Assembly (NCBI GenBank): GCA_963924555.1
Contig: OZ004589.1
Coordinates: 6,696,001 to 6,760,000 of the forward strand
DNA length: 64,000 bases
Source of the DNA: Crambe crambe
Taxonomy: Eukaryota; Porifera; Demospongiae; Poecilosclerida; Crambeidae
Direction: 5' to 3'
A model generated the notes under the pieces. It did not search any database, had not been told where the DNA came from, and saw nothing but the letters and a program-made list of their open reading frames with translations. The stretch's first letter is position 1. Each line of letters opens with the position of its first letter. Shown here in pieces: positions 5,849 to 29,163 of the stretch. Position numbers and translations under genes: made by a program.

Positions 5849-7556
5849 ATGCCAGGCTATAGACTTTCCCCAGATCAAATAAAGGATTCGGCTCTTTTTA
5901 ACAAATATAAGTGCCACCACTGTCAACTGCTTCTAAAGGACGCTCTCCAACCTTCTTGCGGTCACTGGTTGTGTGAATCTTGTGCGGAGGAGTTGCTATC
6001 ACAAGAGTAAGTCCACTGGGGGGAGGGGTGTTCTAAATTTCAAGGTTAAGGGGGACAGAATATCATAGGACCACCTAGGCATATTTCACTTTTTTTGTAC
6101 ATAGCCATCCACTTTGTCCGAATAAGAGCTGCAATGAATCTCTCAAAGATGGAGAAGATGCATCAGTAAGTTAAAGAGTACACAATATTTATCGCCTCAA
6201 TAATAAAATCCTTTGTATATAGCTTTTCCCTGACAAATTTGTTCGGAGAGAGATCAAGCGGTTTCATGTTTCTTGTGAGTGGGCATCAGAAGGATGTAAC
6301 TGGGAAGGAAAACTTGAAAGCTATGATGTTAGTTTTTATGTCTTCTATTTGAGCTGACATATTTATTATGTATTGTAGTGTGGTTTTATATGCAATAATT
6401 ATTTCAGCAACATCTGGGAGACTGTGGATTTGCTCTCCGAAAATGCCTGCAATGTGGAGATACCCTGCCTTCAGGAAAGCTCAAACATGAGTGTCCGAAA
6501 CAAACCACTGGATGTCCCTTAGCAAAACTTGGATGCAATTCAACCTCTGTATGTGTTTAGCTGGCATGCTCACATGATCATGACTAAGCATTCCATTTGT
6601 TACTTCCTCCATAGCTAATGAATGAAGGAGAATTAAGTGAGCATCTAAAGGTGTCTCATGCTCGACATCTAAGTCTCATAGTCAAAGCACTTGCGGGTAT
6701 GATGTCACAAAGTGAAGACAGCCATCTCCGTGACTCCATATCACACTTGAATCCAGAATCAGATCAAGGTTACGAAACAGGAAAGTTTCCTCCAGTTGTT
6801 GAAGCTGATCAAGCAATTTTTGCTTTGGGCACAAATGGGGCTAGTGATATAGTGAAAGATGGGGTGGGAAGTTCTGTAGTAAGAAAAGGACCTAAAGCAT
6901 CCTCCAGTAGCAGCCGGAAACAACTCTCTACAGCTGAATTGGAAGCAGAGTTCAAAAGCGAATTACGAAAAAAAGATGATGAAATAATGTCTTTAAAAGC
7001 CAATGTATCGAAGCTTGAAAGATTAGTAAAATCTAAGCATGCTGAATATGAAGATCGCGATTTCCGATTATCCCTTATTGAAAATAGTAATCATGATGGC
7101 ACAATGGTATGGAAAATCCCCCAGTTTAGTCAAAGAATGAGTGACGCACAGAGTGGAAAATACACCTCCATCTTTAGTCTACCATTTTATACATCTCGTT
7201 ATGGCTATAAGATGTGTCTACGCCTGTACATCTTGGGAGATGGAATCGGTAAAGGTACGTACATGTCCTTATTCTTCGTCATCATGAAAGGAGAGTTTGA
7301 TAATGTCTTGCATTGGCCTTTCACTCACAAAGTCACCTTTAAGCTGCTCAATCAAGGTAGTGGTCGTGATGTCGTTGATACTTTTCAACCTGATCCTATG
7401 AGCAGTTCATTCCGCAAGCCAAAATCAGACATGAACATAGCTTCAGGCTGTCCTCGTTTCGTATCCCACACTGAGCTAAGAAATAACGGCTTCATTGCTG
7501 ATGATACAATTTTCATTAAATGTATGGTTGATATAAATACCGTTAAGCATCCTTGA
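5849..7556 (+). CDS. TRAF-family protein 1: RING, TRAF zinc fingers, coiled coil, MATH
   Basis: Adaptor/E3 of the TNF-receptor/TLR signalling type. Exons 5849-6006, 6105-6165, 6223-6327, 6408-6548 and 6615-7556 join in phase to 468 aa. The RING occupies about residues 22-62 (C22, C25, C37, H39, C42, C45, C57). TRAF-type zinc fingers follow in exons 3-4 (CEW..GCNW, CLQCGDTLPSGKLKHEC). A Lys/Glu-rich coiled coil leads into a complete C-terminal MATH (TRAF-C) domain from about residue 310 (GTMVWKIPQFSQRM, LHWPFTHKVTFKLLNQ). Start chosen at MPGYRL, the first Met before the RING; an in-frame TTG lies upstream. The MATH domain is almost identical to that of the TRAF gene at 17905-19523, whereas the N-terminal halves have diverged. 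The exact orthologue among vertebrate TRAFs cannot be assigned by eye. Confidence 0.92.
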
Positions 7557-8684: not shown

Positions 8685-8989
8685 CATAGTTGCCAACCGT
8701 CCCGATTTGGCCGGGACACTCACGATATTATACCTCTTGTCCCGGTCCCGCCCGACATAGTGCTTTTGTCCCGACAGATAGAGCTACAAGGTAGTCTCGC
8801 GGGCCAAGGAAAGGATCGAGTCTGCTCCGCGAGGCTGTAGCATTATCTATTATGTCCCGACAGATAGAGCTACAGACTAGACTATAGCATTATTACGCAC
8901 GCTCAGCACACATCATGTGATCTGAAGTTATAAACAAATGACATCATGAAATCTATGGGGTGCCGTGTGTGTCAAAAACATTTTATATG

Positions 8990-9690
8990 TCTACTATATA
9001 AAGTATAGCTGTAGTATATAAAGTAAGCCACTCCTACATAAAGTAGAGAGCTACTATATAAAGTATAGCTGTAGTATATAAAATAGAGAGCTACTATATT
9101 AAGTTTAGCTCTAGTATATAAAATAGAGAGTTACTATATTAAGTTTAGCTCTAGTATATAAAATAGCTACTATATAAAGTATAGAAAATAGAGAGCTACT
9201 ATATAAAGTATAGCTGTAATATATAAAATAGAGAGCTATATAAAGTATAGCTGTAGTATATAAAGTAAGCCACTCCTACATAAAGTAGAGAGCTACTATA
9301 TAAAGTATAGCTGTACTATATAAAATAGAGAGCTACTATATTAAGTTTACCTCTAGTATAATGTAAGCTCCTAAATAGATCTAATATATAAAGTATAGCT
9401 GTAGTATATAAAGTAAGCCCCTCCTACATAAAGTAGAGAGCTACTATATAAAGTATAGCTGTACTTAAATGTAAGCTCCTACATTTAAAGTATGTCCCTC
9501 CTATATAAAGCAGAGATATACTTTATAAAGTATAGTTCTCTTATAAAGCATAGAACTACTTTATAAAGCATAGATCTATAAAGTATGTAAAGTAGATATA
9601 CTTTATAAAGTATAGTTCTACTATATAAAGCATAGAGCTACTTTATAAAGCATAGACCTAAGTATGCCTCTCCTACATAAAGTAGAACTA
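8990..9690. repeat. Left subterminal tandem array of the IS3EU-like element
   Basis: Units built from CTACTATATAAAGTATAGCTG, GTATATAAAGTAAGCC and CCTACATAAAGTAGAGAG in shuffled order. They are partly self-complementary and rich in TATATAAA. The same units appear in inverted orientation at 14890-15698. Such arrays often bind transposase or act as promoters; the role here is inference. Confidence 0.85.
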
Positions 9691-9761
9691 GTAAGTGTAT
9701 GATTGTCATATGAGGATCACATGAGTCACGTGACCTTAAGCACGTGGCCATTTTAAAAAAT

Positions 9762-11108
9762 ATGGCTGATGGTGGTAGTGCAATTGCACAGGCTTTGAAT
9801 TCGCTGGCAGGTACCCTTTCTCCACTCCACTCTCCTCTCACACCTACCCAGCCCCTTCAAGCACACTCCCATCCTACACCTGATGGCATTACTAGGTAAA
9901 ATTAACATTGTAGTGATACACTTTAAGTCTAGTTATTTCATAGAGGTCGTCCTTCAATTGATGTATCAAAAGATGATATAATAGCACTGAGAAAACTTAA
10001 CTACTCGTGGACTAAAATAGCACGCATGTTGGGTTTGAGCCGTTCAACTCTATATCGAAGGCTTGACGAATTTAATATTCCCATGAACGACTATGCTGAT
10101 ATTCCCACGGATCAATTAGATGAAATTATAAAGGATATTAAGCATAATTTCCCTAATGATGGAGAAATCATGGTACAAGGTCATATGCTACGTCTAGGAT
10201 TGAAGGTACCTCGGTCGTCGTTGCGTGCAGCCATTCACCGTGTTGACCATGAAAATACAGTAACCAGGTCTTCAAGTGTTATTAATCGCCGTATATATAA
10301 TGCAGCACATCCCAATGCTGTTTGGCACATCGATGGAATGCATAAATTAATTCGATGGCGTTTTGTTGTCCATGCTGGAGTAGATGGATTTTCTAGGATG
10401 ATTGTGTATATCAATGGTGCTGATAATAACAGAGCACAGACTGTCTTGGAACAATTTGTAAGTGCAGTTTCTTCATTTGGTTTACCATCACATATTCGAT
10501 CTGATCATGGAGGTGAAAACATAGATATTTGGAGATATATGCTTTCTGTTCACAATTCTAGTAAGTGTGTAATTACAGGCAGCTCAACACATAATGAAAG
10601 AGTTGAAAGGATGTGGCGGGATTTGGGTAAAAGTGTTACCAGTGTCTTCTCGTCTACATTTTGTTTCCTTGAGAGTGAGGGTATTCTAGATCCCTTAAAC
10701 GAAGTTGACCTGTTTAGTCTTCACTTCATCTTCTTGCCACGTTTAAACCATCGTCTACTTGAGTTCCAGGCTAGTTGGAACTTACATTCTCTGTCCACTG
10801 AGGGAAATATGTCTCCCTATCAATTATTTTTTGAAGGTATCAATGCCACTGACATTAATGATGTTGGTGAACTCACCCAATCTCAAACTGCAAATGTAGA
10901 CACAGATCTACCGGTGTCCAGCCAGCTCAACGTTCCTCCAAATAAGTTCATACCCTGTGACAGCCTATTGTTTCAATTACAGAGTTCATTCCAACCACTT
11001 CATTCATGTACAGACTTTGGGGTCAGTTTATATCGCCAAGTGATTCATTATATTGGTAATCATCTACAGTCTGGATGCTCAAATTGTGAAAGTCAGAATG
11101 GAGAATAG
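9762..11108 (+). CDS. DDE (rve-type) integrase/transposase of the IS3EU-like element
   Basis: Exon 1 9762-9895 (MADGGSAIAQALNSLAG...) and exon 2 9944-11108 join in phase to 432 aa. After the Ser/Pro-rich head comes a helix-turn-helix (about residues 52-85, SWTKIARMLGLSRSTLYRR). The rve catalytic core follows: WHIDGMHKLIRW (D about 175), RSDHGGEN (D about 232) and HNERVERMWRD (E about 266). The spacing and the VER motif fit an IS3/retroviral-type integrase fold. It should cut and join the element's ends in the nucleus. The first exon is homologous to exon 1 of the HECT gene at the other end. No interruption is visible. Confidence 0.9.
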
Positions 11109-11228
11109 TTCAGCATGCTATAGCTGTACACAACTAGTAATGGGAAAGTTGTATTATGTACATGTACAATTATATAGTTAGGTCAATCATATATATATTT
11201 TAAGAATAAACAGCCAGAATATATAGAG

Positions 11229-14200
11229 TTAAACTGTTCCAAAACCAAATGATCCAAGTATACATAAATCCATCTTGTCCCTGAATTCATCTTCATCCAA
11301 GATACCCATGTATCGAGGGAAAGTAATAGAGAGGTCACATGTGGACGCCCAGGGTAAACGATTATCTTCACTTGAAAAGTAAATTTTTGGGTCGGTAGGA
11401 AATCCAGCTGCTGGAATCTTCGATGAACCAGAATAAAACTGCAGAATACGTGATAAAGTGACATCCTGTCGATCTGCAATACAAAAAAATTGCTATTATA
11501 TTATATACTGCCCAGAAATTAGAGATGATAAATATAGATCACTAGTTCTGTTATTCACCTTTTGATTCATAAATGTAGTCAAACCAAAATAGTATGATGG
11601 CTTCTTCCTTGGTGCGGTTATTACTCCCATTATCAGAATAGTGTACAACAAAGGAGTCGCTAAGATAATCAGCAGTAATGTCATATGTCTTTGATGCTGC
11701 AAGTAGCCCCCACATTAGGTCAGGATGTGATGTCATCAAAGCATCAACTCCCAAAGTATCATACATACCCTTCTTCAGTTGCTCCAGCTCTGCATGAGGA
11801 TGGAATATGACATAATGTAACCAAACAGCCTTGACGAGGTTTTCCCTGTCCAAGACTTTGATTTGACAAATTGGTTTATTATAACCACAGGTAAAGAGGA
11901 AATCAAAGCTGTCCTTTTCAAACACTGATTGTAATTCTTCATTGGTATTTGCTGATAATATCTAAAGAAAACAAGATTAGGATTTATAATTGTGTCAGGC
12001 AAAAATAAATTATATAGCTAGCTTTTGTATGCATGCATGCCTCTTTCTCAACTCCCATAGCTACATAAATGTTATAGCTAGCAACTCACCTCTTTTAGAA
12101 TATGTTGGATAGTTACATCAGGAATATCTTCAACACATACTTTGCTTCTAACTTGATTGTAAACAATATAGTCAGCAACAGCCTTTGCAAAGCAAGAAGG
12201 AGCTTCACCTCCTTGAATAAGACTAGTAGAAATCATTTTACCAATAACTGAAAATTTATCTTTGTCAACTGCTTCAACATTGTGAATAGGAACAACATGA
12301 TCAGGGTATCCAATGAAAAGCCCTGACTTCTCAAAACAATCACGCATTAAAAAATGAAAAAATTCACGTCTAGGACCACCTTCGTCCACAGCTTGTTCAC
12401 CAATGAATACAACCCGAAACCTCTTGTATACATTAAAGGAAATCTTGGAAAACTGCTTGAATGCATCTTTAAAAAGATAAGCACGTCTAACATTAATTCG
12501 TTGGTAGTCATCTTCATTTAGACCGATCATAATACTTTGTTGGTGCTGTACGAGTAAATGTTTTGTTGACACGGGATCAAAGGGGTTATCTGTACTGAAT
12601 ATATACAAAAGTATGTTAAAATGTCTACTTCTACAGTTAAGACGAATAAACTCACCCATGGTTAGTTGAAATATGAATCGATGGTAAATCATCATCACTT
12701 TCAGATTCACTGTCTTTTGTTAAGTCAATCAGATTGATATATTGACTAAAGTGAAAGAGAAGAGATATAACTTCACAGTCTGAGATCAGTATATATATTT
12801 CTATTCAATAGAGCTAGACAAAAACACCATAGGTAATTGCACCTATTTATTCCCTCCTAATATTTGTTTATGAACGAACTTTAGGTGTAAGCCTGTAAGG
12901 TAACAATGTAGCTTATTTCACCTATAAGGGTCCAGTTTCACAACAGACGATGACTGGGACTGATTAACAGATGATAATCGGGGTTGAGATAATGTAACAG
13001 ATGAATCAGATGATGACCGGGGTTGAGATAATGAAAGCTGATTGGCAGATGAGGACCGAGTTTGACGAGATGAAGGCTGATTAGCAGATGATCGGGGTTG
13101 AGGCTGATTAGCAGATGAGGACTGTCGTTGAGGTGATGGAGGCTGATTAGCTGATGATGTCCGAGGTTGAGGTGACTGAGGATCATCATCATCAGAGACT
13201 TCATTCTAGAAATGATGTAAAAATCCTGGTAAATACCCCATAACCTTTCCATTAGCTTCTAAAATGCAGGGCATTAGAGCTTGGTCTATTTGCTTTGATT
13301 CATGTGTATCCACTTTTTAAAATTAATCAATTGCTCTTAAATTATTCCATAGACCCATCAACCACTAAAGAGAATTTGGTATTCAAGATAATTTCAGATA
13401 ATACTAGTACACGTTGAGATGATTCAAATAGCAATGTATCTAAATAAAGCACACCAGAGCCATTTATGATTTTTTAAAAAAATTTCAGTGATGAAATCAC
13501 CGATACCTAATATTTGTGTGTTATCATGATATTACTGTTGATGAACGTATGTTATAATATACTACTTGTCACAGAAAAACCCTGCAGTTTGTAAGAGGGT
13601 CTACCCAGTATTTATAGAGGCAAATGGACCAATAAAACTTTACTAGTGCAAGTATGCATGCTTACATCATAGCCTTTCAGAGAAGGCATATCCGCTTGTG
13701 CTAGAATGTAAGTAGTGTTCTTTTGCCCAGCAAGACGAGCAACTTGCTGAGCAGTCCATTTGAAAGAAGAACTCTGAGCGGGTATAACTAGTGTCCTAGT
13801 TCCCTCACCAGCGGGCTGAAGAAATACAAATGGAAATTCAGGATCACCTCCCATTGGAACTTGAAACACAGAGCGGATCTCACGCATAATATCATCCTCA
13901 CTCATTTCTGAAGTTAAGTGTATTTTCCCAATCAGTCCCATTCTTCCTAATTCAGATCGATATCGACCACGTGGATAACAGATTGACATGTTTGAGGAAT
14001 AGTTCTGCCTTGTCCATGGAAGACATATGATATCCCTATCCCAGGTTTGAACAGTTTTTTGTTTCTTTGGTTTTGAACCGCCTTGATTTCCCTTCCTTCG
14101 GAGGAAAGATGGCAATATGTGCGGAGTACGATAACTACATTTAAAAAATCACAAAATATACTGGGAAAACTATTGCTGCTAGGGGTGTGGCTAATAATGC

Positions 14201-14639
14201 CTACCACGAGTATATCTTATTAATAAGGCAGGTAGTTGCACTGACTGAGATGCTACAGTCAAAAACTAGTACTGACTAGCACTTCCTACCCTACAACTAA
14301 GGACAAACAAGATGCTCCCATTGCAGAGAAACTTAATCAATTTTTACAACCCAACTCCTTTCTAATTAACTCATGAATCATTCATAAGAGAATATACTTA
14401 TACAGATTGTCTGCATATGCAGACACTTGATAATCTTGCCTATGTTCCTAGCCACATTTCTGATTCAAATACCTGTTCGAAGTAACAGGAGGTATAGACA
14501 CAGGAGGTGTGGACACTGTCGTTTGAAGGGGCTGGAGAGGAGATTGGACACTTTGCTGAATGAGTGGAGAAAGAGCACCTGCCAGCGAATTCAAAGCTTG
14601 CGCAATGGAAGGAGTACTGCCACCACGGCCATCAGCCAT
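11229..14639 (-). CDS. HECT-domain E3 ubiquitin ligase carried by the transposon
   Basis: Seven exons on the minus strand (14473-14639, 13666-14134, 12922-13205, 12656-12745, 12090-12594, 11559-11961, 11229-11473) join with consistent phase to 720 aa. The head (MADGRGGSTPSIAQALNSLA) is homologous to that of the integrase. Exon 3 is a Ser/Gln/Pro repeat linker (SSANQPQ type). Exons 5-7 form a full HECT domain: N-lobe RVVFIGEQAVDEGGPRREFF and C-lobe LPWASTCDLSITFPRYMG with the catalytic Cys in STC. It ends DLCILGSFGFGTV. HECT enzymes take ubiquitin on that Cys and pass it to substrates. The gene converges on the integrase gene, their 3' ends about 120 bp apart. G2E3-like HECT proteins are the nearest relatives by feel. 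The role in transposition is unknown. Confidence 0.88.
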
Positions 14640-14710
14640 ATTGAAATAATAAATAGCCATGTGCTTAAGGTCACGTGAGGTCATGCAAGCTCATGTGATC
14701 CTCATGTGAC

Positions 14711-14875
14711 GATAGCCTTGTTTACACGTGCGCCCAACCCGGGTTGGATTCCAATCCACTTAATTGATATGGGTTGGGCTACCCGGATTGGAATCCGGGT
14801 TGGTACCGTTCACACGCGCACGCGAAGCGAATCCGGGTTAGAACCCCCGTGTAAACGGGGCTTATAGATTGTTTA
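14711..14875. mobile_element. Small inverted-repeat element inside the right end of the transposon
   Basis: GCCTTGTTTACACG near 14716 pairs with CGTGTAAACGGGGC near 14855, and the inside is a set of nested palindromes around AACCCGGGTTGG and ATTCGGATT-like words. The corresponding position in the left arm (near 9710) lacks it. It therefore looks like a MITE of about 150 bp inserted only into this arm. Exact ends and a target duplication were not resolved. Confidence 0.5.
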
Positions 14876-14889
14876 TGTAATTAACTTTT

Positions 14890-15698
14890 TGTTAGAGTGG
14901 CTTATACTTTATACTTTATATAGTAGCTCTCTACTTTATGTAGGAGGGGCTTACTTTATATACTACAGCTATACTTTATATAGTAGCTCTCTACTTTATG
15001 TAGGAAGGACTTACTTTATATAGTAGCTCTCTACTTTATGTAGGAGGGGCTTACTTTATATACTACAGCTATACTTTATATAGCTCTCTATTTTATATAT
15101 TACAGCTATACTTTATATAGTAGCTCTCTATTTTATATACTACAGCTATACTTTATATATTAGATCTATGTAGGAGCTTACATTATACTAGAGCTAAACT
15201 TAATATAGTAGCTCTCTATTTTATATACTACAGCTATACTTTATATAGTAGCTCTCTACTTTATGTAGGAGTGGCTTACTTTATATACTACAGCTATACT
15301 TTATATAGCTCTCTATTTTATATATTACAGCTATACTTTATATAGTAGCTCTCTATTTTATATACTACAGCTATACTTTATAATAGTAGCTCTCTACTTT
15401 ATGTAGGAGTGGCTTACTTTATATACTACAGCTATACTTTATATAGTAGCTCTCTACTTTATGTAGGAAGGACTTACTTTATATAGTAGCTCTCTACTTT
15501 ATGTAGGAGGGGCTTACTTTATATACTACAGCTATACTTTATATATTAGATCTATGTAGGAGCTTACATTATACTAGAGCTAAACTTAATATAGTAGCTC
15601 TCTATTTTATATACTACAGCTATACTTTATATAGTAGCTCTCTATTTTATGTAGGAGTGGCTTACTTTATATACTACAGCTATACTTTATATAGTAGA
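14890..15698. repeat. Right subterminal tandem array of the IS3EU-like element
   Basis: Inverted counterpart of the left array, built of AGCTATACTTTATATAGTAG, CTCTCTACTTTATGTAGGAG and GGCTTACTTTATATACTACA units. It is longer than the left array and shuffled differently, showing independent expansion after the last transposition or replication-slippage variation. Confidence 0.85.
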
Positions 15699-16139
15699 CA
15701 TATAAAATGTTTTTGACACACACGGCACCCCATAGAAATCCAGCGTGGCTTATTTTTCAGTGTGAAAGTCTTCTTATAAGATGTGAGTAGATGACAGAAA
15801 GATACCTATTTTTTTTTCTTTATAACTTTAGTGTCCAAATGGGCACAAGGCGAGCCAACTAGCCACTGGCTAACCTATCAGCACGCATCTCTACGGGCAA
15901 ACCATGGTTCTACCCTGATCTCTCAGTTTTGCTCGGTTTTTTCTATCGGTTTTGATACCTAACTTGAATCTACTTAGTTAATTACCTAGTTCTTACAACC
16001 TGCACATGCACGACACATTCCCAAGTTTAATCAAAATGGGCGTTTTTAATAAAAAAGTGGGCGTGGTCTATAAAATTTTCGCGCGCGCATAGCCTGTCCC
16101 TATATTCTATTTCCAGAAGTTGGCAACTATGCTAATGAT

Positions 16140-16230: not shown

Positions 16231-17482
16231 ATGGCCAACGAAACAGATTTTATTGACGATGTTATTGAAACTGAAGAATTGACAACGTCAGATCGTTTGT
16301 TGGATGAGGAAGTTCTAGAGCATGAAGACAGATTTGCACAATCCGAAGTTGAAGCATCTGCAAGAAGCAATAGCACTGCTTCTAGGATCAGCAACTTTAG
16401 TAAGCGGAGCTCGCAAGCCAGTATCAAGAGCCGGCGAGCTTATGGTATTGATGCCAGCTTCGAAGAAGCACCTGAAGACGCAACTAACCACCCAGAGGTA
16501 ATGCCAAAAAAAATTTTGTTTACGTCTGCAGTTTTTTTGCTGACACGACTGTATTTTGCAAGCGTTATTTGCATGCAATTGAGACATAAATATTAATTAT
16601 AGCCGTGAATAATATTATATTATTATTATGTAGGAGAAAGCGACAGTTTTCCCTCGGACCTCAGGATTGAGACAGCAACACTCTTTGCTGCAAAATCCTC
16701 ATGGTTATCAAAGTGTACCAATTGTAAGTCCCATCAGTGAGAGTGAGAGTGATGGATTTACTACATCAGAGCCAATAAAACAGCCCCCTGACCGGTCTAC
16801 AACTGGAAGAAGTGACATGCTGGAACGTCACTCAGTATTACACTATCCACACAAAGACCAGGATAGAAAAGTTATCAGTCCTGTCAGTGAGAGCTACAGA
16901 TTCAATAAATGCCTATCAGAGCAAATACCTCAGTCTGTCTTGTCAATGGTCACAACACAAGACAATTTAGAGTTTGTATTGGAGTCAACTCAGACCAGCT
17001 TCTACGACTTCAAAATTCCAGATATTAGCACTGCACTGAAATTGAATTCCAAAATCAACAGTCCTCCATTTGTAGTGACCACAAAGGACACGAATGGCTA
17101 CAAAGTTAGCATGCAGGTATATTTCGGTCAAGATTATATGTCGGTTGCAATCGCAATTATGAAAGGGTCTACCAATAAACTCCCCTGGCCTTTTGATAGG
17201 AATGTTGTATTCCGATTGGTCAATCTTGATGGAAGCAGCGGTGGTGATAAGCTCAGAGCATTTCGTTGTGACATGAATGGATCACGCTTCAAAGACTCTC
17301 TCTCTAGACCCAAGTCGTCTGAGATAAATCCACCAATTGGATTTCCTTTCTTCATATCACGACAGTGCTTATTGCACAACAGTGGTTTCATTAGGAACAA
17401 TACCATGCATGTACAATGTTTGATACTACCCAAAGCAATTGAACTAAGAGTGTCTCCTGAAATGCCTGTTGTCATCAAATAA
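16231..17482 (+). CDS. TRAF-like protein 2: divergent MATH domain, no RING or zinc finger
   Basis: Exons 16231-16497 and 16634-17482 join at codon boundaries to 371 aa. The N-terminal half is polar, acidic and Ser-rich (FIDDVIETEELTTSDRLL...). The C-terminal part resembles the second half of a TRAF MATH domain: YKVSMQVYFGQDYMSVAIAI, LPWPFDRNVVFRLVN, RFKDSLSRPKS, GFPFFISRQCLL and NNTMHVQCLI. The aromatic entry strand of MATH (the W.I motif) is not obvious. The RING and zinc fingers of the neighbours are absent, so a ligase role is unlikely. It could be a decoy or adaptor that trimerises with the full TRAFs; that is inference. The closest relative is the gene at 20849-22641. Confidence 0.85.
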
Positions 17483-17904: not shown

Positions 17905-19523
17905 ATGCCTGGTTACGACATTGAAAATATTATTTTCAAGGATCCTGAACTGCTGAGCAAATACACTTGCCCTGAATGCAAACTACTTTTGTTCGATGCT
18001 GTTCAGCCGAGTTGTGGTCATTGGCTCTGCCAGTCCTGTGCAGATACAATCATCGCCAGAGAAAAGTATATAATTAATTATAACCATCTGTCATTTATTC
18101 TCATCTTTCATTTATTACAATTCTCATCTGTCATTTATTCTCATCTGTCATTTATTACAATTCTCATCTGTCATTTATTACAATTCTCGCAGTGAACCAA
18201 GTTGCCCCAAAGAAAAGTGTGGTGAGCGATTTTCAGCTGAAGATAATGTATTGGTAAGTACAGGAAGCAAATTCTTATTGTATTAATTTTACTTTGGTTT
18301 TCTAATTGTAGTATTTCCCAGATCGCTTTGTCCGAAAAGACATTTTGGGCTTGTCTATCAGTTGTAAATTTCATCATATGGGATGTGACTGGGTTGGAAA
18401 GTTTGGTCAACTGGAGGAACACATCAAGACTTGTGACTACAGTTCCATTGAATGCGAATTCTGCCAGAAACTTTTTCGCTCCAATGAAATTGAGTCGCAC
18501 AAAGCTGGATGCCTCAAAGTTGCCAGAAAGTGTCCGCTGTCAGTGATAGGATGTGAAGTCAGTAAAGCAATGGCTGTTGAAGAGCTTGAAGAACACTTGA
18601 ATCTGAATGCAACCAAGCATTTGGAGATTCTAGTCGAAAGAATGCAATCTCTCGAGCAAATGACAAGTAAAAGAGGTCGTCAAGAACCTGAAGGATATGA
18701 GGACTCCGGATTCGGATCTCTCAATTTAGTGGAAAAAGACTGTGCCACAAGTTATTATAGTCCTACTGGTTCTGCATCCCCAAGAAGCATGCAGTTACCC
18801 AACATACAGAGAAAGTCTCCCTTTCCTCCAAAAATGGTGGAGCCAAGTGGAATTGAAAAACTACCATATGATTCTGACAGGAAATTGGCGGCTTTGAAGA
18901 GTGATATCAAGGTTAGTGTGATTAAAGAGCTTAAAACAAAAGATGAAGAAATTGCAGCTTTGAAGTTGACGGTGGCAAAGCTTGAGAAGTCTGTTCGATT
19001 GAAGACAGCTGAGTTCGAAGATCGAGATTTCCGATTGTCCCTGATTGAAAATAGCAACTATGATGGCACGATGGTGTGGAAAATCCCACAGTTTAGTCAG
19101 AGGATGAGTGATGCACAGAGTGGAAAATACACCTCCATCTTTAGTCTGCCATTTTATACATCTCGTTATGGCTACAAAATGTGTTTACGTCTGTACATCT
19201 TGGGAGATGGAATTGGTAAAGGCACATACATGTCCTTATTCTTTGTCATCATGAAAGGAGAGTTCGATAACGTCTTGCATTGGCCATTCACTCACAAGGT
19301 CACCTTCAAGCTCCTCAATCAAAGCCACGGACGTGATATTGTGGACACGTTCCAACCAGATCCCATGAGCAGTTCATTTCGCAAGCCAAAATCCGATATG
19401 AACATAGCCTCAGGGTGTCCTCGATTCGTATCCCACACAGAGCTCAAGACCGGGGGTTTCATTGTGGATGATACCATTTTCATTAAGAGCATTGTAGATA
19501 TATCCAGTATTAAGCATCCATAG
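17905..19523 (+). CDS. TRAF-family protein 3: RING, TRAF zinc fingers, coiled coil, MATH
   Basis: Exons 17905-18065, 18193-18253 and 18312-19523 join in phase to 477 aa. RING: CPECKLLLFDAVQPSCGHWLCQSC, continued in exon 2 (CPKEKCG). TRAF zinc fingers: CKFHHMGCDWVGKF, CDYSSIECEFCQKLF and CPLSVIGCEV. A Lys/Glu-rich coiled coil runs about residues 265-315, then a full MATH domain (GTMVWKIPQFSQRM to FIKSIVDISSIKHP). It is likely an adaptor/E3 for receptor signalling. Compared with TRAF gene 1, introns 3 and 4 are missing while the first two splice positions are shared. Intron 1 holds a tandem repeat of ATTCTCATCTGTCATTTATT (18080-18190). The MATH block is almost identical at protein level to gene 1. 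Confidence 0.92.
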
Positions 19524-20848: not shown

Positions 20849-22641
20849 ATGGAATCAGATACAGCTGTTACGGATACTAAGACAATTACAACTGTTGACG
20901 CCGAGACTCAGACGGATGATCGTGAAGAGAGATTTGTGAGAAGTGGAAGTGAGTCTGGTTTCGCAAGAACTAGCAGCTCCGCTTCCAATCTTCCGAGGAA
21001 TGATAGTATCTCGAGCTCTGGATCTGTTTCCGGCTCCAGCGCTCTTGCTGTAAGTCTAGCTGAGATATTCTATGTAGCTACTAGTAGTAGACTGTAGAGT
21101 AAGCTTACAGCCATGCCGCAAAAGTGGCGAAAACTCATGACACTGTGTGTCGACAATACCCTCCAGGTTTGCACAATCAAAATCAACACCCACCACGATT
21201 ACCATACCCTCCATGAATAATTTTTGGCTACAAGTTTGGTGGTGTTTCAGTGCCTTCAGGCTCAGTCATAAAGAAGCATTGGTAAGATGAAGGAAGCAAG
21301 CAGCAAAGAGTTTGCAGCTATAAGGATGCAGATTAACCTAGAATTGCACAATTCAATCTGGCAGTAGCTATTAAATGTGTAAACAATCTTTGTGGCTTGT
21401 TACATGGCGGAATAACCACTGGAATAGCATAAATAAAAGGCTGCAGTCATTGTTATAGCTCACTCCCTCACCTACACATTAGTGTTCTTGAGTGCTAGTA
21501 TTGCATTCTGAGAAGTTCTTTTTACATCCTTTTGGGATCAGCAAGAAAACTGATTGCAAAAATTACATCTTAAATGCTATGCACAGTTCAAAATATATGA
21601 TGTACTCTTTCAGGAAATTTTTGTCAAGAATAATAGAAAAGAATAATGGGTCTACTGGAGGATCACTGCAGAATAGAATAATAGACCCAAAAAAGAACAT
21701 TTTACTAGATGATCACCTAATCAGTTCTGTGACATGCTGCAAATATGCATAAATTATCATAGTATTGTACAGATAAGGTAAATTAATTATGACTTATGAA
21801 CTCTAAACTACTGTCAATATCTTAAAGGTATCCTCCAACTTTAGTCTCAGTATATAGTTTCAGAAATACCCCACCATTCAGAATTTCTCCACTTTACCAT
21901 AGTAATTATTATAACAAGTGATTGCATGCTTAATCAGCTCCTTCCTACTTTAACTAATAGGCAATACCAGAGGCTCCAGTGCATCGAAGAAGACGTAATG
22001 ATGGTAATGATGCTGAATCAATTAGGAGTAATGATAGTCCTGATGAATTAATTAGAGCCTGTGAAGAATGCGGCAATCCTTCCTTTTCCGAGCGAGTCCC
22101 ACCGTTTCCCATGTCGAAACTCATGCTACAAAACGCAATGGATTTAATGTTGACTGCAACTCAGTCTCATATCAAGAATCTGATAGTTACTAATGTTCAT
22201 GAAAAGCTACAGACAGGTAGGATTGAAGAAAAGTGTATATTCACCATCCCCTCAACAGAGAAGCATGAGTACAATTTAGTCGTGAAAGTAGCAATACATG
22301 AAAGCGTAGCAGTTTCTATGGCGATCCTGAAGGGTGACAAAGATAAAGCTCTCATTTGGCCATTTAATAAGAGTGTCATATTCAGGGTGACTAATCAACG
22401 TGGAAAACCAGACAAAACAAGAATGTTTCGCTGTGACCGAAATGCGGTTCGATTCAAGGAGTCGCTTTCCAGACCCAAAAGTGATGCGAATCTCCCGTTA
22501 GGGTTTCCTAAATTCCTCTCACGACAGAGTTTATTGAATGAAGGCTTTGTATGGAATGATACTATGTGTGTGCAATGTATCATATTCCCAAAAGAAACAA
22601 AGCTGGCTCTTGATGCAGAAATGCCATCTGTCTTCAAGTGA
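20849..22641 (+). CDS. TRAF-like protein 4: divergent MATH domain, no RING or zinc finger
   Basis: Exons 20849-21049 and 21961-22641 join at codon boundaries to 293 aa. The head is Thr/Ser-rich and polar. The tail matches TRAF-like 2: YNLVVKVAIHESVAVSMAIL, LIWPFNKSVIFRVTN, RFKESLSRPKSDANLPLGFP and NDTMCVQCIIFPKE, ending EMPSVFK (EMPVVIK in gene 2). Same two-exon layout and intron position style as gene 2, so the pair arose by duplication. It lacks ubiquitin-ligase parts; a regulatory or decoy role is inference. The last part of exon 2 was copied into the tandem duplication (see 26173-26421). Confidence 0.83.
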
Positions 22642-23036: not shown

Positions 23037-25289
23037 TCAGCAAGTGATTCCACACATATCACTGCTTGTGTATAAAAACAAGTTTGGTGTCAGTCGTCTG
23101 TGCTTCATGGGTAGAGTATCCATATGGATTCTGTCTAGACGGGCCATCTTAGTGATGAGGTAGTGCTTAATTTTCCACTGTGGAACCTGTGGACATTTCT
23201 GGAGGAGAAGAGCCAATGCACCACTCACAAATGGAGCTGCAAAAGAACTTCCTTGTGAGTACTTGTAGCAAGCACTGCGAAGTCTGCAGTTGAAAGGTAT
23301 GTGAGTCCATGGTGTACGAATGAACTCACCTGGAGCAAGAATATCAACACATTGACCCATATTGGTTCGTTCAAAGGCGGAAAAGTTGCTCCTGATTGCA
23401 CTGACCGTGATGACCCCGTGATGTGACCCGGGAGACAATTTGCAGGAATTCTTCGGCCTTCTGGGATGTGGTGAATTCCCTGCAAGGGCCACTACTGTTA
23501 CTTTGTTATTGATCAGTACATCGATGGAGCGCTTTATGCTTCTTGATTTCCGTCCATAAAAGGAGACTTGGAGAATAGCGGGTTTTTGTCTGACTTTAGT
23601 CTGATTGAGAATGCATTCCAATCCTAGAAGTATCAAACTTGTCGAAGAAGTGCCATTGCAATGCAGAGTTCGCACCGAACGCAAAGTAACTTTATGAGCC
23701 ACTCCGGTCGTGACTCCACCCACTAATCCTGCTACCCCTGTCCCGTGTCCATGGCAATCTCGTCCCCGTTGCTGCCTTACTGCAGGATCACTCCTGGCTG
23801 TGACAAGATCTATCGGATCACAGCCTGAAAACTCTGCCCTTCTATCAGTAAACTCTACATGGTTGTAATCAATCCCTGTGTCCATAACATACACATCCAC
23901 ACCCTCTCCACTCAGGTTGCACGGACGAGTGTATCTTCGATCTTGTGCCCCGTCAATGCTGTCAAGGGCCCAGTTATTCAGGAACACTGTTTGGAGGTTG
24001 CTGTCAGACTGCCCCAACCTGAACTGAGCATCTTCTTCCACATATGCCACTGATGGATGAGTTGTTACCTGATCAGAGAGAGAGAGGGCACCTCATAATT
24101 AATTATTAACAATCGACTTTTGCACACATGTCTATTGATACCAAAATCATCAGTTTATCGGTTTATCTGTATAACACACATATGTACACACAAACATTAT
24201 CTTATATAATATGAAAACTATAGGATTGTCCAAGTGTTTTTATAACCAGATAGTTAAGTTGTCATCATTACTTGATCACTTTTTAAATAATCATTTCTTT
24301 TAAAAATCAAAATCTACTGAAGTGGCAAGCGTGATCAGTAAGAGTTTGACTCAGTTGGTCAGCAAATGGCCAGGAATCGGTGCTCGAAACTTGTTACTCA
24401 AACTACCACTCCAACTACAGAAAACATTTTTAAACTCATCTTCAAGACCAGTACTCCTGTGAAACCATCTATAGTGACCAGTCACCTATGGGCCGGCCAG
24501 TGAGTCACCCATGGGCTGGCGGCGGTTTAGTTAAACCGGTTTATCAAGCGATGCAAACTGGTATTTCCGGGTGCAGTGACAGGCCAGGCCAACTAGTGCA
24601 GTTTTTCCACCTTGGAGTACTTATGTAAACCATTTGTCGCAGCCTGAACACGATGTGGGCAGACAATGAGACCACTAAATGATGTAGCTAAATAATCTAA
24701 GGCTAGCAGCTGCGGACTGAAACCTATATATCCACGCCACACATACTTAAGAGTTCACCACGTGCAAATTTGTACTAAAAAAAGTGGCTAAATGCAATTT
24801 GCCTGAGGCTAACTATTTTTTTACAATGCAGCAGGTTACTATTATTGTGAATCACATTTTCCTTGTGTGAATCATAGAGCTTAAGATGCATAAATTCATT
24901 TGGTGCTTTGCTATTTCTGTTAATTGCAGTAAATTCAATTATATTATTAAGTTAAATATTAATAATTACTTGGCAAAATTTAATCATGGCAGCTTATTGA
25001 GCAATAATGGACTTACATGATCCAGAGCTTGGAGAGATAGCTGAGCTGAAAATCCATAAAATGTCTCCTTCAAGATCCCACGTATCATGGCACTGAATCC
25101 AGGAAGGCTCTGGTTGGCATCCATCACCTCGAGATCTTCCATTAGATCTTCTGCTACTTCCCATTCTCTTGTGCCAATGATGTAGTAGCCAGGGATACGA
25201 CTGCTACTGGGGGCTTTGTACATCTTTGTAGCTATCAGTGAACTTACAAGGCTCAGGACCAATGTCAGAGTCAATGATGAAACTGACAT
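23037..25289 (-). CDS. Secreted subtilisin-like (S8, proteinase K-type) protease, copy 1
   Basis: Exon 1 25017-25289 and exon 2 23037-24068 join in phase to 434 aa. Signal peptide MSVSSLTLTLVLSLVSSLIA, then an I9-type propeptide (PGYYIIGT...SAQLSLQAL...VAYVEEDAQ). The catalytic domain has Asp in VYVMDTGID, His in DCHGHGTGVAG (codon 23745-23747), oxyanion Asn in VALAGN and Ser in GSSFAAPFVSGA. The enzyme should be secreted and self-processed like proteinase K and the PCSK9-type proteases. No C-terminal domain follows the catalytic domain. The gene is head-to-head with a SETD9 copy across about 210 bp. Confidence 0.9.

Positions 25290-26656: not shown

Positions 26657-29163
<2,507 letters not shown>

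Follow-up and report, generated by a model that had tools for sequence, protein, structure and literature searches.

An IS3EU-type transposon of Crambe crambe and its described relatives

The closest described relatives of the element analyzed here are the IS3EU/GingerRoot DNA transposons. According to the main text of their description, they have TA..TA ends, a 6-bp target-site duplication, and an IS3/IS481-like DDE integrase without the HHCC motif, and the string "hect" has no occurrence there (PMC10045372). Fungal IS3EU elements carry genes for an alpha-kinase and a TET/JBP enzyme (PMC12730594). An earlier note on this DNA took a transposase to be the sole gene that a DNA transposon normally has; in view of the fungal elements, this premise was too strong. 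The window, that is, the whole 64,000-nucleotide stretch of the sponge Crambe crambe considered here (contig OZ004589.1, positions 6,696,001 to 6,760,000), contains an element that has all the listed IS3EU/GingerRoot features and differs in having a HECT ubiquitin ligase as a second gene. It shares with the fungal elements an accessory enzyme gene in opposite orientation to the transposase, the 6-bp duplication, and the TAYGG..CCRTA ends, whereas the fungal accessory genes encode a kinase and a DNA dioxygenase, and that of this animal a HECT ligase (PMC12730594). None of the papers listed by the literature searches showed an IS3EU–HECT pairing. We conclude that this is quite probably an intact-looking autonomous IS3EU-type transposon, whose usual gene set comprises an HTH–DDE integrase and an opposite-strand HECT ligase as a working part.

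The element occupies 6781 bp (8954-15734) and has TA..TA termini, with TATGGGGTGCCG at both ends; these two copies, at 8954 (+) and 15734 (-), are the only matches in the window at one mismatch or fewer, compared to 0.07 expected. Its inverted arms are complementary at 99% over the outermost 167 nt, 98% over 220 nt, and 88% over 355 nt, and it is flanked by the 6-bp duplication GAAATC (Table 1). By coordinates, the joined site is spanned at 15 other places; six of these were fetched and aligned, and in all six a copy of the host repeat crosses the insertion point without the insert and has one GAAATC. Sequence and end search bear out the exact duplication and matching ends claimed in the earlier note; it had proposed to look for polymorphic empty sites with a single GAAATC, and the empty sites found are paralogous ones. 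The exact duplication and the empty paralogous sites indicate that the element came in as one unit. In an exact search, the 18-base end TATGGGGTGCCG has no second occurrence elsewhere in the assembly; a search with its first 11 bases gave 99 places. The element family of the window is represented in the assembly by a single copy.

The predicted integrase consists of two exons encoding 432 aa without a stop and matches the Pfam families rva_4 (E 2e-72) and rve (E 2e-8), as well as HTH families. A zinc domain is absent from the best 25 Pfam families listed, and the scanned viral contigs gave no match to the integrase. Among the aligned elements with letters at the respective positions, the catalytic triad is retained in 26/26 (D), 27/27 (D), and 28/28 (E) cases.

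The predicted HECT gene is convergent to the integrase gene. It has seven minus-strand exons with GT-AG borders, is open throughout, and encodes 720 aa, of which residues 426-718 match Pfam HECT (E 2.6e-17); no other Pfam family reaches even E 1. The HECT part comprises 380 aa, and its residues 25-379 can be aligned to HECT domains of solved structure, with pub2 as the best match (E 2e-13); the catalytic cysteine is kept as Cys685 in ASTCDL. Both the whole spliced DDE integrase and the seven-exon in-phase HECT gene with its catalytic Cys, as given in the earlier note, were therefore recovered as open gene models. Since the HECT domain is complete and retains the catalytic Cys, the protein is, by its sequence, a HECT-type ubiquitin ligase predicted to form a thioester and transfer ubiquitin. 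Like Rsp5/Pub2/NEDD4, E6AP, and HUWE1, it has a full-length HECT domain, the catalytic Cys in a TC motif, and a C-terminal GFG tail; unlike them, it has no known partner domains, contains an uncharacterised N-terminal domain and a motif resembling a SUMO-interaction motif (SIM), and resides in a transposon.

Table 1. Coordinates of the features of the element in the window
Feature	Position	Strand	Basis
Left target-site duplication GAAATC	8948..8953		sequence; single copy in 6/6 fetched spanning empty sites
Left terminal inverted repeat, AT-rich subterminal ~20-bp repeats	8954..9532	+	arm complementarity; tandem array 8990-9655
Promoter and start of integrase exon 1, inverted copy of 14562-14713	9702..9827	+	72% identity, E 4.7e-19
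Integrase exon 1 (MADGGSAIAQALNSLAG...)	9762..9895	+	gene model
Integrase exon 2, HTH and DDE core (rva_4/rve)	9944..11108	+	gene model, Pfam; DDE residues kept
HECT exon 7, catalytic Cys685 (11337-11339), C-terminal GFGTV	11229..11473	-	gene model, alignment to solved HECT domains
HECT exon 6	11559..11961	-	gene model
HECT exon 5, HECT N-lobe	12090..12594	-	gene model, Pfam
HECT exon 4, SUMO-interaction-like motif YINLIDLTKDSESESDDD	12656..12745	-	gene model; motif in relatives
HECT exon 3, Ser-rich linker with 39-bp repeats	12922..13205	-	gene model, repeat analysis
HECT exon 2, basic stretch and conserved N-terminal domain, model ubiquitin-like in look	13666..14134	-	633 relatives; AF2 pLDDT 89; weak fold matches
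HECT exon 1 (MADGRGGSTPSIAQALNSLAG...)	14473..14639	-	gene model
HECT promoter and exon 1, other arm of the inverted repeat with 9702-9827	14562..14713	-	alignment
Right terminal inverted repeat and subterminal repeats	15012..15734	-	arm complementarity, repeat analysis
Right target-site duplication GAAATC	15735..15740		sequence; single GAAATC in empty sites

Recurrence and co-divergence of the two genes

IS3EU-type relatives are numerous in the same genome. A Pfam HECT match lies within 2 kb of the integrase in 25 of 81 clusters (0.18 expected), and in all 25 the two genes are on opposite strands and convergent; the other 56 clusters lack a Pfam HECT match at this distance. With a local HECT profile, which gave 0 matches in reversed ORFs, HECT was found at 19 of 29 rank-chosen loci and, with longer flanks, at 22 of 29, the increase including L014. 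Only these 29 loci provide a count not chosen by HECT presence, as C10_3367, C12_339, C13_3201, C14_1050, C1_7571, C1_7745, C3_5288, C6_930, and the extension of L014 were added after a Pfam HECT match had been seen. Three of the 28 element sets yielded no HECT: the flanks of L010 and L028 were short, and the Pfam match in C3_5288 has a stop; L057 and L059, outside these sets, show HECT matches. Nine contigs of other assemblies, matched by exact length between two best-120 lists (0.06 expected), apparently hold the pairing as well.

In several relatives the element borders can be traced. One pair of inverted repeats encloses both genes in L004, L006, L012, and L030, and in L011 it encloses the integrase and a weakly matching HECT. 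The target duplication is exact in L030 (CAGCAC) and L011 (TAGATC), matches at 5/6 positions in L006, has 5 bp in L004, and is unclear in L012. Among the integrase-bearing pairs of 11-base ends, 2/11 contain a Pfam-grade HECT match; the remaining pairs, as far as they were read, need the local profile. Another family has near-identical recent copies with both genes. The scanned parts of L011 and L015 have no Pfam HECT match, and HECT is detected there by the local profile alone; these two elements are oriented divergently, and convergence is therefore no general rule of the elements. Two candidate ends were rejected: the outer inverted repeat of L018, which belongs to a different element with the 9-bp duplication CTCAACACC, and the first inverted repeat found for L015, which is internal.

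The earlier note had counted against its reading a HECT gene absent or decayed in all other copies, or ends not shared by them. Because the window family has no other copy in the assembly, both points were applied to the relatives only; these have the HECT gene and share the ends in an 11-base version. As the ligase is also present in numerous distant relatives within this genome, it appears to have long been a functional component of such elements rather than a stray passenger.

The catalytic Cys of HECT is kept in 24/25 element sets, with Ser at this place in C1_4537. A recent copy, L025, has a stop, and in L009 the HECT exon frames are open while the integrase is split by a stop. Distances between integrases correlate with distances between HECTs (r=0.55, permutation p=0.0002, 22 elements); the near duplicates L009, L027, and C1_7745, counted among the 25 catalytic-Cys sets, were removed before this test. 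The integrase and HECT trees contain five groups of identical membership, and two more differ only by L005, whose integrase comes from one clade and HECT from another. Deeper branches disagree with good support: (i) L021/L031 are placed with the L012-L018-L014-L030 group in the integrase tree (support 96) and with the six C elements in the HECT tree (96), and (ii) L011/L015 fall into the clade of the window in the integrase tree (87) and into the other large clade in the HECT tree (95). Old HECT exchanges, repeated gains, or long-branch error in half-filled alignment rows could each cause this disagreement, and hence one single gain of HECT is not established. Compared with only two host HECTs, the transposon HECTs have a support of 82, with one very long branch.

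The dN/dS analysis across copies proposed in the earlier note was run between families. Between the window and L004, pN is 0.29-0.32 and pS 0.74-0.78 for HECT, and 0.34 and 0.80, respectively, for the integrase; dS is saturated, so omega has an upper bound only. By these proportions, the divergence is strongly purifying. The near-identical copies of family C have at most three nonsynonymous and two synonymous differences in 368 codons, too few for dN/dS. Two further comparisons were not used, L051/L052 (an apparent misaligned end, with pN equal to pS) and L054/L055 (five differences only).

Possible roles of the ligase

The suggestion of the earlier note that the ligase helps the element is well supported by the recurrence of HECT beside divergent integrases, the correlated distances, the agreement of shallow tree groups, the purifying divergence, and the retention of Cys. 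As for its two proposed routes, the SIM-like motif would favour removal of host repressors, whereas the shared first exon may point towards action on the integrase. We regard a SUMO-directed role of the ligase, in anti-silencing or in clearing the transpososome, as plausible.

The SIM-like motif, predicted from sequence, is present in the window, L004, L006, L007, and protein P0001 of Dysidea avara; a pattern scan finds it in 3/11 elements (window, L006, and L007), the variant in L004 having been read by eye. SUMO-targeted ubiquitin ligases such as RNF4 are RING ligases with a SUMO-interaction motif; the predicted motif in a ubiquitin ligase is the common feature, and the difference is RING there and HECT here. 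P0001, named in its source as a G2/M phase-specific E3 ubiquitin-protein ligase-like protein and known here from its protein sequence alone, is 32% identical to the window HECT protein over 79%. It has the same order of parts: the end of the N-terminal domain, an acidic linker, the SIM-like YVNLLSSDEE, and HECT. Modelled alone, its structure had pLDDT 32 and was unusable. P0001 is the one protein with this annotation met in the analysis.

A SUMO-directed ligase is the single mechanism that we rate as most likely, though still tentatively. The ligase may be nuclear, given the basic stretch ahead of the N-terminal domain, and would be co-produced with the integrase from the same promoter and exon 1; its targets would be proteins at or around the transposon. 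Through the SIM-like motif, the HECT domain would reach SUMOylated proteins of chromatin or repair, whose ubiquitination and removal would relieve silencing or free the donor and target DNA. Assembly of the ligase with the integrase may be made possible by the N-terminal exon that they have in common. It is doubtful, if conceivable, that an animal IS3EU lineage has long possessed its own SUMO-directed ligase (ubiquitin-like domain, SIM, and HECT), sharing promoter and exon 1 with the integrase, co-made and co-assembled with it, and clearing SUMOylated silencers or the spent strand-transfer complex, so that transposition would be ubiquitin-dependent.

Another scenario, somewhat less likely than the SUMO-directed one, is that the ligase binds the integrase via a common N-terminal helix and ubiquitinates it, limiting its amount or dismantling the stable strand-transfer complex after insertion. 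A model is provided by ClpX, which dismantles the Mu transposase complex. The promoter and exon 1 are common to both genes as an inverted repeat, with 72% identity in the window and 99.1% over 221 bp in L004, and thus the integrase and the HECT protein begin alike (MADG...IAQALNSLAG in the window). The same exon-encoded starting peptide on both proteins, the common promoter, and the HECT distances that track integrase distances all argue for this scenario. However, the likeness of the two first exons could reflect a long inverted repeat homogenised by conversion; the shared exon 1 is seen in the window and L004, and no identical exon 1 was found in the other families looked at; and the SIM-like motif is left unexplained.

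Less likely again, the ligase may act independently of SUMO and change how histones or repair factors at the break are ubiquitinated, with substrate specificity conferred by the N-terminal domain. An all-protein search with the whole HECT protein gave only two matches among 7994 scored candidates, and therefore the N-terminal domain was taken as the search marker; it has 633 relatives, and no Pfam match at E 0.01 was obtained in 68 members. This scenario is favoured by the conservation of the domain (57-59% to L004) and by its AF2 model (residues about 84-207, pLDDT 89), which has the strand order of ubiquitin-like (beta-grasp) folds, with weak matches to known folds.

Service to the host, with HECT kept as a domesticated ligase (e.g., in immunity) and the surrounding transposon incidental, is very improbable: the open HECT frames beside the broken integrase of L009 speak for it, but the window copy arrived as a unit, both genes are present in near-identical recent copies from a different family, and the close pairs are convergent in 25/25 cases. 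Least probable of all is a single chance capture of a host gene by the window copy, the gene being useless to the element and not yet decayed; host-gene capture by DNA transposons is common and the window family is single-copy, but HECT recurs beside divergent integrases with agreeing shallow groups and purifying divergence, and its N-terminal domain hardly occurs away from integrases (14/17 places within 10 kb of one, compared to 0.19 expected).

If the ligase is needed for transposition or helps it, these elements would be a DNA transposon lineage with its own ubiquitin machinery. Were this true, both the escape of transposons from SUMO- or chromatin-based silencing in early-branching animals and the disassembly of eukaryotic strand-transfer complexes would become testable. 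HECT genes annotated as "G2/M phase-specific E3 ligase-like" are many in animal genomes; such elements are a possible origin of these genes, some of which may be transposon genes counted as the host's.

Structure of the window element

The element carries TATGGGGTGCCG, read inward, at both ends (2 matches; 0.07 expected), with GAAATC on each side. Its arms are long and AT-rich, contain internal repeats with a unit of roughly 20 bp (33 and 39 copies), and are 99% complementary in the outermost 167 nt, with further stretches at 98% (220 nt) and 88% (355 nt). The host sequence of both flanks is a dispersed repeat. The joined flanks, used as a query against the same genome (143 Mb, 119 contigs), gave 44 matches, 15 of which lie elsewhere and have coordinates that span the junction. 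All six spanning sites fetched (L076-L081) lack the insert and have one GAAATC in an uninterrupted repeat. These sites establish a real insertion with a real 6-bp duplication, and the matching ends and exact target duplication put forward in the earlier note both hold.

The reading of a whole spliced DDE integrase and a seven-exon HECT gene with agreeing phases and a kept catalytic Cys also holds as a gene prediction. The left gene has two predicted exons; its 432-aa product matches HTH families and contains a DDE integrase core (Pfam rva_4, E 2e-72; rve, E 2e-8). The right gene, convergent to it, has seven predicted exons that are bordered by GT-AG and agree in phase; its stop-free 720-aa product retains Cys685. 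The HECT domain scores above the Pfam cut-off (63.8 vs 23.9 bits) and can be aligned almost full length, C-terminal GFGT included, to solved HECT domains, those of pub2 and Rsp5 among them. N-terminal to it are a Ser-rich repeat linker, the motif YINLIDLTKDSESESDDD, a conserved exon of 156 aa that begins with basic residues, and exon 1. We take YINLIDLTKDSESESDDD to be similar to SUMO-interaction motifs, which makes it a candidate by sequence resemblance. A relative of this HECT is present in the sponge Dysidea avara.

An inner inverted repeat comprises the promoter and exon 1 of both genes (72% identity, E 4.7e-19), giving them near-equal promoters and a common starting peptide. In L004, a related locus of the same genome, the arms of this repeat are 99.1% identical over 221 bp, so that its integrase and HECT protein both begin MNNSSIEMLSNAIAVAIQQSATSNGTATLS. 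Other HECT proteins of this type have different short helix-like N-termini, judged by eye; no identical copies of these were seen on the integrases looked at. TRAF-type genes surround the window element.

Coordinates of the features (window positions unless a contig is named)
Feature	Position	Length	Strand
Transposon	8954-15734	6781 bp	
Catalytic Cys685 codon	11337-11339		
Four ORFs with TRAF/MATH domains	6615-7553, 16634-17479, 18312-19520, 21961-22638		
Two neighbouring subtilase (Peptidase_S8) ORFs	23040-24092, 26660-27763		-
Short TATGGGGTGCC-bounded pairs	G000:C6:4699924-4700646, 7048745-7049460, 7082472-7083211, and five others		
End pair enclosing L010	G000:C13:2615681-2637132	21 kb	
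L005	G000:C1:7029907-7035895		
L018	G000:C3:9514673-9520430		
C1_4537 (L060/L065)	G000:C1:4535300-4538300		

Recurrence of the pairing in the genome

The integrase has at least 104 matches in at least 81 clusters of its own genome, and Pfam HECT at least 120 in at least 71. A HECT match lies within 2 kb of 25 of the 81 listed integrase clusters (chance expectation 0.18), in every case on the opposite strand and convergent. The other 56, which include a number of partial integrase matches, have no Pfam HECT match at this threshold. Among the 29 next-best integrase loci (L004-L032, fetched by rank with about 1.5 kb per side), a local HECT profile was positive in 19, with 0 hits in the reversed-ORF control. 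Longer flanks add L011, L014, and L015, giving 22 of 29, a count in which L016, L017, L019, L020 (siblings of L015), L010 (L011-like), and L028/L029 stand at their original flanks.

In L004, L006, L012, and L030, a single pair of inverted repeats encloses both genes. In L011 both genes likewise lie within inverted repeats, but in divergent order and with a weak HECT match. In the ORFs of such divergent-order elements (L041/L011, L042/L015), a CUE/UBA-like stretch can be seen by eye ahead of HECT; the parts scanned gave no Pfam match for it.

A search for the 11-base end TATGGGGTGCC gave 99 places, against 6 for the reversed control; 19 facing pairs are less than 25 kb long. Exactly one integrase cluster is enclosed in 11 of these, two with a Pfam-grade HECT match inside. 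Eight others are short and MITE-like (281-1540 bp), contain no integrase match, and are probably non-autonomous derivatives. The 21-kb pair around one integrase (L010) perhaps holds nested insertions. L030 (G000:C6, duplication CAGCAC), also an IS3EU-HECT element, sits in a different copy of the window's host repeat, and its target is seen uninterrupted, with one CAGCAC, in the left flank of the window element (8890-8940). The region of element L018 lies between the arms of another inverted repeat, TAGTCTCGCGGGCC, which has the 9-bp duplication CTCAACACC; the start of this repeat also occurs in that flank (8792-8805).

Constraint and partly shared history of the two genes

Between the window element and L004, pN and pS are 0.29-0.32 and 0.74-0.78 for HECT, 0.31 and 0.77 for the N-terminal domain, and 0.34 and 0.80 for the integrase; synonymous sites are saturated, so purifying selection is strong and its magnitude inexact. 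Of 25 element sets (near duplicates counted), 24 retain the catalytic Cys. The exception, C1_4537, with an adjoining integrase, has Ser in its place (HTSSN), which may reflect either decay or a non-catalytic form.

Integrase distances are correlated with those of HECT (r=0.55, p=0.0002, 22 elements), also in the longer-overlap subset (r=0.47, p=0.0004, largest shuffled value 0.50, 17 elements). In trees built by a quick method, with SH-aLRT as the sole support, five groups have the same membership for both genes: the window element with L004/L008 (HECT 99, integrase 99), L011/L015 (98, 99), L021/L031 (96, 99), L014/L018/L030 (93, 94), and L014/L030 (83, 95). Two more, L006/L007 and C10/C12/C13/C15/C1_4537/C6 (further integrase/HECT sets), are discordant by the placement of L005 alone. 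The L005 integrase groups with L006/L007 and its HECT with C12/C6; its N-terminal domain is of the L006/L007 type, unlike its HECT. This locus is best read as one whose HECT part was exchanged between elements.

At deeper splits the two trees disagree. L021/L031 fall with the L012 group in the integrase tree (96) but with the C elements in the HECT tree (96); L011/L015 fall with the clade of the window element for integrase (87) but with the other large clade for HECT (95). Possible explanations are old exchanges, repeated gains, and long-branch error caused by half-filled rows (L011, L012, L015, L018, L030). Compared with two host HECTs, the 20 transposon HECTs group together, with a support of only 82.

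Proposed role of the ligase

IS3EU elements are characterised by TA..TA ends and duplications usually of 6 bp (PMC10045372). Fungal IS3EU elements carry alpha-kinase and TET/JBP genes (PMC12730594), whereas the window element carries a HECT ligase gene. Domain fusions with transposon parts are the subject of PMC12062965, in the searched text of which "hect" has 0 occurrences. No paper recognisable as a description of the IS3EU-HECT pairing came up in the literature searched; a Repbase entry may already show the second ORF.

The window element carries its integrase and HECT genes as one unit, the pair is retained in related elements that have diverged widely, and purifying constraint acts on both genes. 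We infer that the ligase aids the element in the nucleus. The role we tentatively favour is that it would act as a SUMO-directed ligase and remove host proteins. Ranked second, and rather unlikely, is that the ligase would turn over the integrase or clear the transpososome. Third, and somewhat less probable still, the N-terminal domain would pick other nuclear substrates.
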